Below, piece by piece: positions 2,448 through 29,672 of a stretch of DNA of 64,000 bases. Both the position numbers and the translations under genes were made by a program. The stretch covers positions 1 to 64,000 of the forward strand of contig DAHUXR010000003.1 of NCBI GenBank assembly GCA_027307045.1, in the 5' to 3' direction. The stretch's first letter is position 1; each line of letters opens with the position of its first letter. This DNA comes from Acidobacteriaceae bacterium. GTDB lineage: Bacteria; Acidobacteriota; Terriglobia; Terriglobales; Acidobacteriaceae. The notes under the pieces were generated by a model that saw nothing but the letters and a program-made list of their open reading frames with translations, was not told the origin of the DNA and made no database searches.

Positions 2448-3353
2448 ATGGCGATAACTCACAAAGCTTCTGAATCCAGCACGCAACTTGCGAAGGCGTG
2501 TCCACTGAACACAATCGGCGTAGTTGGCGCTGGGGTGATGGGTGCCGGGTTAGCTCAGGCGCTGGCCCAGGCGGGACTGCGGACTCTGCTGATCGATACA
2601 TCCGATTCAATCCTGGGTGCAGCCCTGGACAAGGTCAAAAACAATCTTCGCTTCCAGCGTCTGCTCCAGAAAGACTCTGTGGTCAATCCGCAGGAAGTGA
2701 TTGCCCGCATACAAGTTTCTACTGCCTATGATGTGCTGAGTGAAGCGGATTTCGTGATTGAAAACGTGACGGAGAAGCTTGACGTTAAGTCGCAGGTGCA
2801 TCGGCAAATGGAAGAAGCCTGCCCTGCTCATTGCATCTTCGCCGCAAATACTTCGGCCATTCCTATTACTCGAATCGCAGCCATGTCACGCCGCCCAAAC
2901 CAGGTTTTGGGCATGCACTTTATGAACCCCGTTCCATTGAAAACAACGGTGGAAGTTATTCGCGGGTATCACACCAGTGAGCAGACATTACAAGTGGCAA
3001 AACGGCTGCTCTCCTTGATGGGAAAAGAGGCCATTGTTGTTGGCGACTCACCCGGTTTTGTATCGAACCGCGTTCTGATGCTGACCGTAAATGAAGCCAT
3101 TTTTCTGCTGCATGAGCGGGTCGCCGCCGCGGAGGACATTGACGCTATTTTTAAGAACTGTTTTGGACACAAAATGGGTCCGCTTGAAACAGCGGATTTG
3201 ATTGGTTTGGACACCATCCTTTTTTCGATTGAGGTGCTTTACGAAGAATTCAAGGACAGCAAATTTCGCCCATGCCCATTATTAAAGCAGATGGTGGATG
3301 CGGGACTGCATGGACGCAAAAGCGGCCGAGGATTTTATAACTATGCCGATTGA
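2448..3353 (+). CDS. 3-hydroxyacyl-CoA dehydrogenase family (FkbK/ZmaG-like), intact
   Basis: This NAD-dependent 3-hydroxybutyryl/3-hydroxyacyl-CoA dehydrogenase has 301 residues, slightly longer than the usual 280-290. The N-terminal Rossmann motif reads GVVGAGVMGAGLAQAL (about 25-40). The catalytic region has NTSAIPITRIA and GMHFMNPVPLKTTVEVI with catalytic His157 and the paired Glu. GDSPGFVSNRVL and a C-terminal dimerisation domain ending GRKSGRGFYNYAD follow. In hydroxymalonyl/methoxymalonyl-ACP pathways this family oxidises the 2-hydroxyl of glyceryl-ACP. Its flanks are dead PKS and NRPS relics, yet it shows no lesion. A deleted paralogue lies at the equivalent position of the main cluster (29505-29672). 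I infer that this copy supplies the missing oxidation step in trans. A role in fatty-acid or butanoyl metabolism is the alternative. Confidence 0.85.
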   Translation: MAITHKASESSTQLAKACPLNTIGVVGAGVMGAGLAQALAQAGLRTLLIDTSDSILGAALDKVKNNLRFQRLLQKDSVVNPQEVIARIQVSTAYDVLSEADFVIENVTEKLDVKSQVHRQMEEACPAHCIFAANTSAIPITRIAAMSRRPNQVLGMHFMNPVPLKTTVEVIRGYHTSEQTLQVAKRLLSLMGKEAIVVGDSPGFVSNRVLMLTVNEAIFLLHERVAAAEDIDAIFKNCFGHKMGPLETADLIGLDTILFSIEVLYEEFKDSKFRPCPLLKQMVDAGLHGRKSGRGFYNYAD

Positions 3354-3485
3354 CCTGGACATGTGGGGCGATGCGCTTGATCAAGAGAAAGAAGAATTGA
3401 GAGGTTTTGTGCCCGGCCATCCGGTGGCGCGAAATTGCAGGATGATGGGCCGATCTTTGCGATCGTCTTCATGTGGGTTCCACGC

Positions 3486-4636
3486 ATGAGTGGTGAAATA
3501 CAGCAGGCATTAAAGGAGCGGATTTCCGGCCTCACTCCGGCGCAGCAGGTAAAGCTCGCGCAAAGGTTGAAGAGCGGTGCAACGGCAGCGCCAGCAGAGC
3601 TCGGCCTGCGCCGACGGTAGGGGCTTGAGTATCCGATTACCCCCGAACAGTCGCATATGTGGCTGATACAGCAGGTGGATCCAGCCACCTATTACTTCAA
3701 TCATTCCCATGCATTCCTGCTGCGCGGGCAGTTTGATATGGCAGCAATGCAGAAGGCGATTGACGAGGTGGTGCGACGCAATGAGAACCTGCGCACCTGC
3801 TTTCCGGAGATTGAAGGCAAGCCCCAGGCCAGGGTTCTTCCAGAATTGCGAATTCCAGTCGAGGTGGAGGATATTTCAGCAGTTCCGGCGGCAACGCGAC
3901 AAGAATACATCCTAAGCCTGGTGAATGCGGAAATCTCACGGCCTTTTGATCTTCTTAATAGGCCATTGTTGCGGGCCAATGTTTATCGCGTCAGTCAGGA
4001 TGAGCATGCACTCATTTTTATTGTTCATCACCTGGTTACAGACTTTATCTCTTACAGTCTGGTGGAAAAGGAAGTTTTTGCTCTCTACTCTGCATTCTCG
4101 CGTGGCCTGCCTTCGCCGCTTCCTGAAGTGCCTGTTCAATATGGCGACTTCGCACTCTGGCTGGATGATTGGATGAAGTCCGGCGCTTCCGAGCGGCAGA
4201 CTGAATATTGGATGAAGAGGCTGGCCGAAGTGCCTCTGCTCGGGCGGCGAGCGAATGTATCGCACTGGCGATAATGCGCGTTATCTGCCGGATGGAAAAC
4301 TTGAGTTCTTGGGCCGCACTGACCAGCAAATAAAACTTCGCGGCTACCGTGTGGAAATTAGGCGAGATTGAAACGGCGCTGATGCGCTGTGAGGGAGTGG
4401 CCGCGGCCGTGGTGTTTGTCCGCGAAGATCGGCCTGGCGAAAAGCGGCTTACCGGATATGTAGTGGCAAATTCGGAAGCGAAGCTGGATTCGGCGGAGCT
4501 TCGTGATCGCCTGATGAAGACGATTCCCGGCCATATGGTGCCTACGGCGTTTGTGGCGCTGGATAAGCTTCCTGTCACGGCCACTGGAAAACTTGATCGC
4601 AAGGCATTACCAGCGCCCGACTTCAGTCCGCTTTAG
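3486..4636 (+). pseudogene. NRPS relic: condensation N-half joined to adenylation C-end
   Basis: The frame from ATG 3486 (MSGEIQQALKERIS) parallels the start of NRPS3 at 32354. A TAG at 3618-3620 interrupts it, after which the same frame continues as a condensation domain: EYPITPEQSHMWLIQQVDP, RRNENLRTCF, HHLVTDFISY and WLDDWMKSG. At about 4240 it jumps frame into adenylation motifs GERMYRTGD (A7) and [12 protein letters not shown] (A8). One extra A near 4354-4357 then shifts frame again to GEIETALM and TGKLDRKALPAPDF (A10), ending at 4636. Compared with NRPS3 module 1, roughly 600-650 residues (second half of C and most of A) are gone. Nonsense codon, deletion and frameshift together make this a clear pseudogene and a paralogue of the NRPS3 N-terminus. 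Confidence 0.85.
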
Positions 4637-29300: not shown

Positions 29301-29530
29301 ACGAGTTTCTGCGGTTAGGCGGCAATTCACTGCTGGCCATAAAGGTAGCGGCTGAATTGCGTGAAACATTCCAAATCGAGTTACCGCTTGCGGCGCTTTT
29401 GCGATCGTCTACCGTATCTGAGATTGCCCTATTTGTCGAGGACGCCCTGTTGACCATGATCGAGAACATGGATGAGTCTGAACTGTCCGGAATGGAGACA
29501 AACGATGTTTACCCATCCGCCACCGACTGA
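26333..29530 (+). CDS. Type I PKS module: KS-AT-ACP
   Basis: A single 1065-residue extension module without reductive domains, so it would leave a beta-keto group. The ketosynthase (about 8-430) has Cys179 in TACSTSL, His315 in EAHGSATPMGD (usual HGTGT altered to HGSAT) and His355 in FGHLNAAAG: a complete triad. The acyltransferase (about 520-870) has GYSIGEY with Ser651 and the HAFH motif at 748-751. The linker inside AT is extended (residues about 580-625). The carrier (about 955-1040) has LGGNSLLA with Ser999 and looks peptidyl-carrier-like. Translation is coupled to NRPS2 by an ATGA overlap, so the KS probably accepts the NRPS2 peptidyl chain. The extender genes that follow suggest hydroxymalonyl-ACP as extender. 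HAFH on its own is typical of malonyl-type ATs, so specificity remains open. Confidence 0.95.
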   Translation: MTRDALDGIAIIGMAGRFPQAPNLQRFWENLCQGIESTSFFSEEELEQAGISRELLRHPNYVRARGVLEDADLFDAGFFGYSPREAELTDPQIRLLLECAWEVLESAGWNPEKFSGMIGVYAGMSFSSYIWQLAGEDTDADSVSAFRILMGGAEKDHLATTISYRLNLRGPSLNIQTACSTSLVAVHAAARAVMTYECDMAIAGGSTVNVPQRSGYMYEPGGIASADGHCRSFDAEASGSVSGDGVGVVLLKRLEDAIAAGDTVYAVIKGSAINNDGRRKVGFTAPAVEGQAEVIALALAAAEAECESIGYIEAHGSATPMGDPIEIAALNQVYGQAGLKPASIAVGSVKSNFGHLNAAAGVAGLIKTILAVRHGSIPASLNFRQPNPAIPFGRGPFRVNHTLSPWPESNKPRRAGVSSFGIGGTNVHMILEEAPEIKPSDPAKPWQVITISARSREALERATDQLATHLLEHPEQNFADVAFTLQEGRKAFEHRRMAVCRDSSAAASLLQSRMPSQVFTTISALRRRPVAFLLPGLGDQYLDMGRGLYESEPEFARHVDECSELLQPLLGVDLRKTMYPDPRVREQNEVRTEERMNFRNLVQREREGNSTALQEIHRTLWAQPALFVIEYALAKLWISWGIIPESMMGYSIGEYVAACLAGVISLEDSLHMLAIRAQKIEALAPGAMLAIAASETEVRPLLTPEISMAGINGKSLCVVAGTPEAVDALQQRLAREGELVCRRLLASHAFHSPLMAPVAEELTRLARSIPLSPPRIPYISNVSGKPITDAEATDATYWARHLTLPVQFAAGLQHMCSATAPVFLEVGPGQMLTSLAEQYLAGRGFADRVALASLPHASDAQPDRAFILSTLGNLWLAGIEPDWTALHRDEHRRRVQLPTYPFERQRYWLSPRRQPQQQREAGPVKAATAAASIGQEIGSSQQNIKLESNGVENSRSHLSAEFVAPGNSTEQKIAEIWEELLGIHPIGIHDEFLRLGGNSLLAIKVAAELRETFQIELPLAALLRSSTVSEIALFVEDALLTMIENMDESELSGMETNDVYPSATD

Positions 29531-29672
29531 CAATAAACCCTCTGGAGAAGCTCTGGACGTTCCCGGCCTGGAAGCTATAGGTGTGATTGGGTCGGCAAGT
29601 CATGGGTTTGGCCTGGCCCATGCGTTGGCGCGCCGTAAGATCGGGCGCGGGTTATACAGCTATGAGAATTGA
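29505..29672 (+). pseudogene. 3-hydroxyacyl-CoA dehydrogenase, internal in-frame deletion relic
   Basis: ATG 29505 has GGAG 7 bases upstream and overlaps the PKS end by 26 bases. The 55-codon frame begins with a linker, then AIGVIGSASHGFGLAHAL, which matches the Rossmann-fold start of the intact dehydrogenase at 2448 (TIGVVGAGVMGAGLAQAL). It then jumps directly to ARRKIGRGLYSYEN, matching that protein's last residues (GRKSGRGFYNYAD). About 245 central residues, including all catalytic ones, are missing, but start signal, frame and stop survive. The position (PKS, this gene, ACP) is where a methoxymalonyl/hydroxymalonyl cassette would carry its dehydrogenase. The intact paralogue 26 kb upstream also follows a PKS-type tail. 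Confidence 0.8.

Follow-up and report, generated by a model that had tools for sequence, protein, structure and literature searches.

Probable supply of a missing extender-unit dehydrogenase from the wreck of a paralogous biosynthetic cluster in Candidatus Angelobacter

The window analyzed here, i.e., the whole 64,000-base stretch examined, comprises bases 1–64000 of a 97-kb contig from G000, a draft acidobacterial genome (356 contigs, 94% complete) that belongs, together with its relatives G004 and G001, to the genus Candidatus (Ca.) Angelobacter. It contains one seemingly functional nonribosomal peptide synthetase/polyketide synthase (NRPS/PKS) cluster, hereafter the main cluster, and, upstream of it, what is left of a paralogous second cluster, hereafter the wreck. 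The main cluster has lost its gene for an FkbK-type 3-hydroxyacyl-coenzyme A dehydrogenase (HADH), an enzyme of extender-unit synthesis, except for a short remnant; a complete gene of this type stands in the wreck, and the missing step is probably supplied from there. Clusters are usually read as self-contained, and one without an essential gene is easily called dead. Ca. Angelobacter is described in PMC9723581 as a soil acidobacterial genus in which NRPS and PKS clusters are abundant.

All genes and gene fragments described below lie on the + strand. The orthologue of the main cluster is found on contig C15 of G004 at about 90% DNA identity (window 19473–29631 against C15 2–10175, 90.6%; window 29634–40367 against 10922–21682, 89.6%), and alignment with C15 identifies the HADH remnant at 29505..29672 as 55 codons with a scrambled NAD motif, in which about 42 N-terminal codons are joined to the last 12–13. 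Relative to the full-length HADH of G004, the remnant displays a net loss of 248 codons as well as one +1 and one −1 base indel around the NAD motif, which has changed from GAGVMG to GSASHG. Over the 41 codons compared, it differs from G004 by 13 nonsynonymous changes; samples of the same size from the neighboring intact genes average 4.0, and at least 13 were met in 115 of 5000 such draws. The loss at 29505 is confirmed, from the alignments, as a genuine deletion, and a sequencing error is argued against since the remnant itself shows decay. Apart from this remnant, no FkbK/ZmaG-type HADH is present in the main operon, while the other members of the cassette are all intact: the discrete acyl carrier protein (ACP; 29697..29957), with 94% amino acid identity to its counterparts in G004 and on contig C120 of G001; an acyl-CoA dehydrogenase-type enzyme (ACAD; 29968..31119), recognized by Pfam, assigned to the FkbI type by position and company, and with FkbI (1r2j, E 3e-62) as one of its many ACAD matches in the PDB; and an FkbH-like protein (31130..32212; NCBIfam TIGR01686 FkbH, 278 bits against a cut-off of 147). 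A first-pass annotation of this DNA had noted both the reduction of the dehydrogenase to 55 codons and the presence of its three companions, and had proposed a comparison with a relative carrying a full cluster; both observations hold, and the comparison, when run, revealed a full-length gene in G004 at the site of the remnant.

The intact gene at 2448..3353, about 26 kb from the remnant, encodes a complete FkbK-type HADH of 301 amino acids with the Pfam domains 3HCDH_N and 3HCDH. In an 87-row tree, based on the best tblastn segment covering at least 220 query residues (L004 thereby being absent) and with a bootstrap that is not fully settled, it lies inside an FkbK-type clade of 19 rows (support 100/100) that is separate from the other HADHs, and is sister to the main-cluster HADH of G004 (support 100/99), the two end branches being similar in length (0.23 and 0.25). 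The clade is named by its gene company, no characterized FkbK or ZmaG being knowingly among the tree rows; in the fetched loci of its 17 other rows, an ACP accompanies the HADH in 16, an ACAD in 14, and ACP, ACAD and FkbH together in 12. Among the 63 other loci of the genome-contig set, by comparison, ACP or FkbH occurs in none and ACAD in 38, as expected of beta-oxidation genes. An identity as a beta-oxidation Hbd/PaaH enzyme is rejected, as the protein stands outside the other HADH rows in the tree and below the NCBIfam cut-offs (best score 326 against 408; PaaH 223 against 669). A search of G000 with the 2448 HADH returned six matches, the sole FkbK-type one being 2448 itself and the next best only 36% identical. 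The first-pass annotation had taken the full-length relative at 2448–3353 to be FkbK-like, naming a grouping with PaaH/Hbd catabolic enzymes and another FkbK-like gene in the genome among the outcomes that would speak against its reading; the placement in the FkbK-type clade agrees with its assignment, and neither outcome was found, the second within a genome that is 94% complete. In an 18-row alignment, from which L022 was left out though it is in the tree, the 2448 HADH keeps all 64 positions at which the 17 other rows are invariant, and relative-rate counts with 16 outgroups each gave no significant acceleration (largest chi-square 2.45). The direct ratio of nonsynonymous to synonymous substitution rates (dN/dS) between this HADH and that of G004 meets saturated synonymous sites.

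The surroundings of the 2448 gene consist of broken pieces. A fragment of an NRPS adenylation domain with one 1-base deletion (1992..2349; 71% DNA identity to bases 90143–90501 of contig C190 of G001) is fused to the C-terminal carrier tail of a PKS (2351..2437; 81% to the C190 PKS tail), and the HADH gene follows. Behind it come a fragment of an extender-unit ACP gene (3379..3482, gene bases 4–106), an NRPS start with a condensation domain and a TAG stop at 3618–3620 (3487..4240), and a second adenylation domain fragment with one 1-base insertion (4238..4626; 72% to C190). The NRPS start resembles both C190 (3531–4240, 78%) and NRPS3 of the main cluster (3624–4211, 66%). These four fragments, i.e., all but the HADH gene and the ACP fragment, match one C190 cluster in the same order. 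The earlier description of the 2448 gene as lying behind a PKS carrier tail and ahead of an NRPS3-like start is confirmed. The ACP fragment, absent from the first-pass annotation, was recognized by local alignment with the ACP genes of the window and of G004, and either alignment score was reached by none of 2000 dinucleotide shuffles. Since this fragment follows 2448, the second locus too had PKS, HADH and ACP before its NRPS. Remains of ACAD or FkbH were sought in 3354–3486, and none exceeded the shuffles (314 and 470 of 500 shuffles, respectively, reach the scores). The gene remains thus show that the main cluster and the upstream wreck each formerly had their own HADH and ACP, and both probably once had the whole HADH-ACP-ACAD-FkbH cassette for hydroxymalonyl-ACP. 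The claim of two paralogous extender-unit loci, which the first-pass annotation had made, is supported.

The partner genes of the lost dehydrogenase look alive, as judged from their substitution patterns. In the comparison with G004, whose fetched stretch contains no match for the gene at 50657 and covers NRPS2 for a comparison of only 2285 codons, the three lowest dN/dS values among eight main-cluster genes belong to ACP (0.076), ACAD (0.099) and FkbH (0.118), the others ranging from 0.126 to 0.217. Window-specific and G004-specific changes are balanced (ACAD 7/7, FkbH 5/6, ACP 1/1, with 12, 13 and 3 not assignable). The acyltransferase (AT) domain of the PKS module (KS-AT-ACP, i.e., ketosynthase-AT-ACP; 26333..29530, Pfam) has as its best match among solved structures ZmaA-AT (4qbu), a hydroxymalonyl-ACP-specific AT. 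Its motif reads GYSIGE, and GYS[IL]GE is read in the AT domains of the PKSs of the window, G004, C120, C190 and a further G001 contig, C180. A motif table in PMC4207774 gives GYS for two ATs taking ACP-borne units and GHS for five using CoA units.

It seems that the same loss of HADH has happened elsewhere in the genus, in G001. Among nine genomes of the genus, FkbH was found at E ≤ 1e-50 in three and ACP at E ≤ 1e-8 in the same three, each of which has one HADH match at E ≤ 1e-80. G004 possesses a single complete cassette, located in cis. In G001, C120 carries the main cluster's orthologue (83–85% DNA identity), and between its PKS and NRPS3 only an intact ACP (94% amino acid identity) is left, with HADH, ACAD and FkbH gone; on C180, another PKS/NRPS cluster has ACP, ACAD and FkbH intact and an HADH that an internal deletion and frameshifts have disrupted. 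On C190, the orthologue of the upstream locus, the NRPS begins within about 130 bases of the PKS, and no cassette genes were found within the 80 kb fetched. A complete cassette is present on contig C80 of G001 (L096 4600–10761), whose 56.8 kb gave no PKS match; nearby are a CmlA-type diiron hydroxylase, a thioesterase, a lone adenylation-domain protein and an ATP-binding cassette (ABC) transporter. The related genomes resemble stages of one process: a full cassette in cis (G004), HADH lost (the window and C180), and only ACP kept (C120). A broader reading, to which we give slightly less than even chances, is that the genus pools its diffusible extender-unit enzymes, HADH first, such that paralogous assembly lines share one HADH per genome and keep the ACP that meets the PKS in cis. 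If true, paralogous assembly lines become dependent on each other's remains.

The proposed course of events begins with the deletion of the main-cluster HADH, whose remnant is in place, and continues with the falling apart of the second cluster, presumably later, in which only the HADH gene stayed whole. FkbH, ACP and ACAD are jointly sensible only with an HADH activity, and 2448 is the sole FkbK-type gene found; it is therefore taken to act in trans, a reading that we regard as likely, and we infer that the gene is expressed, active and selectively retained. By analogy with its family, the FkbH-like protein would load a glyceryl group onto the ACP encoded at 29697. The 2448 HADH, as a free soluble enzyme working on an ACP-bound substrate, would oxidize glyceryl-ACP to the aldehyde in trans, and the ACAD encoded at 29968 would oxidize the aldehyde further to hydroxymalonyl-ACP. 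The ZmaA-like AT of the PKS would then take up the hydroxymalonyl unit, and the main cluster would depend on a gene that survives among the remains of another.

Several observations weigh against this proposal, and some of them speak for the alternative that 2448 is a chance survivor of a recent upstream decay, with the main pathway dead or dying after the loss of its HADH. The upstream NRPS and PKS fragments contain two frameshifts and one stop in 1541 bp and still have a low dN/dS (0.03–0.11); with so few small lesions and such values, the wreck looks recent. At this rate, the Poisson probability of a 903-bp gene without small lesions is 0.17, a figure that leaves the ACP fragment out; it falls to 0.04 if that fragment's three 1-base indels against the G004 ACP are counted, a count made against a paralogue and on a weaker alignment. 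The absence of lesions as proof of selection on 2448 is thus not reached, and the earlier claim that the gene escaped decay by completing the pathway in trans stands in part: the constraint on the partners despite the decayed remnant and the G001 parallel support it indirectly, and selection on 2448 itself is not demonstrated. No sigma-70-like promoter match was found in 1400–4700, against 2.7 expected, although such promoters may not apply here. Where the other rows are invariant, the ACAD of the window departs from them at 3 of 51 columns (that of G004 at 2 of 51) and its FkbH at 3 of 83 (likewise 3 of 83 in G004). The remnant does not look fresh; its dating is rough because much of the divergence falls in the variable N-terminus. 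Its two indels in 163 bases have P 0.04 if the lesion rate of the NRPS and PKS fragments applies, which suggests that the main HADH went first and the upstream cluster collapsed afterwards; this order would be weakened by the denser lesions of the ACP fragment, or if the two remnant indels were one event. The AT match and motif serve as a lead: where a PKS AT was read outside the genus, in 12 loci, the AT that matched best shows GYS six times and GHS six times, so the motif is not diagnostic and is rejected as proof of AT specificity, and a second AT signature, given in PMC4207774 as hydrophobic residues replacing RXR, reads V-C-R in the window, i.e., is half present. At about 94% completeness, the genome assembly may lack a second HADH, and the C80 cassette of G001 sits 7 kb from the end of its contig, which leaves an adjacent PKS possible there. 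Against chance survival, however, the large deletions that took away most of the upstream locus spared exactly the gene that the main cluster lacks; when four surviving stretches were placed at random, all of the HADH was covered in 1.5% of 200000 draws, a rough and post hoc figure. Moreover, ACP, ACAD and FkbH have stayed intact and constrained beside a decayed HADH remnant, and a parallel case exists in G001. With the lesion count also counting against it once the ACP fragment is included, we consider chance survival unlikely.

The remaining alternatives are less probable still. A less specific beta-oxidation dehydrogenase from elsewhere in the genome could provide the activity, leaving 2448 unneeded, and the search of G000 did return three further nearly full-length HADH-type matches (27–36% identity) and a partial one with a stop. 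However, the FkbK-type clade is separate with full support, the highest-ranking of the other copies (C255, L002) sits on a long branch among the remaining rows, and it is the FkbK-type genes that accompany ACP and FkbH, which the 63 other loci do not; such a supply is hence highly improbable. Slightly less credible again is a change of chemistry in the main cluster, in which FkbH and ACP would deliver a glyceryl unit and no hydroxymalonyl would be made: the loss of HADH in cis beside intact FkbH and ACP is compatible with it, but the ACAD is intact and under constraint although it would lack a substrate if there were no HADH activity, and the AT is closest to ZmaA-AT among solved structures. 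Least credible of all is an assembly artifact in which the organism has a complete HADH that was lost in assembly. The genome is indeed a 356-contig draft, but the substitutions and two 1-base indels of the remnant are not made by a simple misjoin, and a similarly broken HADH occurs in another genome, G001.

The chemistry of trans supply by the 2448 HADH is that of the known hydroxymalonyl-ACP pathway; what is new, as read from the gene content, is the reciprocal loss between paralogous clusters, with its parallel in the genus. The zwittermicin A pathway to hydroxymalonyl-ACP employs ZmaD, ZmaE, ZmaG and ZmaN, and FK520-type cassettes for methoxymalonyl-ACP offer a second comparison system. 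The window shares with zwittermicin A the same four enzyme classes, the GYS motif in an AT with ZmaA-AT as its best solved match, and the lack of a separate O-methyltransferase gene between PKS and NRPS3; in contrast to zwittermicin A, its cassette HADH is a remnant, and the only FkbK-type HADH found is about 26 kb off in a decayed paralogous cluster. ZmaA-AT and ZmaD of the zwittermicin A pathway are treated in PMC4207774. As in methoxymalonyl-ACP cassettes of the FK520 type, including HliH-K and HliQ of haliangicin, FkbH, ACAD, ACP and HADH are separate small proteins in a PKS cluster; however, the haliangicin cassette, as given in PMC4768178, includes an O-methyltransferase domain as well, and its HADH is present in the cluster at full length (287 amino acids). 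The arrangement also resembles cross-cluster sharing of biosynthetic parts, to the extent that the accessible sources describe it, in that the parts of one assembly line act for another; it differs in being read from the reciprocal gene loss of paralogous clusters and in concerning one oxidation step of extender-unit supply. Among the matches listed in a search of the open literature, no title described a cassette completed from another cluster. If true, trans supply by 2448 advises caution in cluster prediction that treats each locus alone, and presents a natural experiment on which components of an extender-unit pathway are able to function in trans.

Outside the genus, FkbH was found at E ≤ 1e-95 in 3 of 121 genomes of a Streptomyces sample, too few to rate HADH-less cassettes there, and 16 further genomes had been selected for having HADH and are thus of no use for such a rate. 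In the Thiomargarita genome G101, locus L008 has an FkbK-type HADH in a PKS locus whose fetched 21 kb contain no ACP, ACAD or FkbH; the FkbH match of G101 is on a different contig, possibly indicating a split pathway or a fragmented assembly.

The remainder of the main cluster comprises four NRPS genes, all assigned by Pfam: NRPS1 (8914..16737), with condensation, adenylation and thiolation (C/A/T) domains; NRPS2 (16800..26336), 90% identical in amino acids to G004 over the part present there; NRPS3 (32276..40321); and NRPS4 with a methyltransferase domain (40467..46874). The entire NRPS4 gene is missing from G004, where position 21682 joins 21695, and the C120 orthologue in G001 is missing about 1.18 kb with the methyltransferase domain (window 41957–43134), its frame remaining open at 1740 amino acids; by alignment, these differences are module and domain turnover between species. 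Near the start of the window, bases 522–574 resemble the 3' end of a tRNA gene and have 80–93% matches in several genomes of the genus, although ARAGORN reports no tRNA in the window, this segment included. Bases 1161–1323 recur as partial repeats with 72–83% identity on contigs C343, C29, C109 and C35 of G000 and perhaps represent a decayed dispersed repeat.

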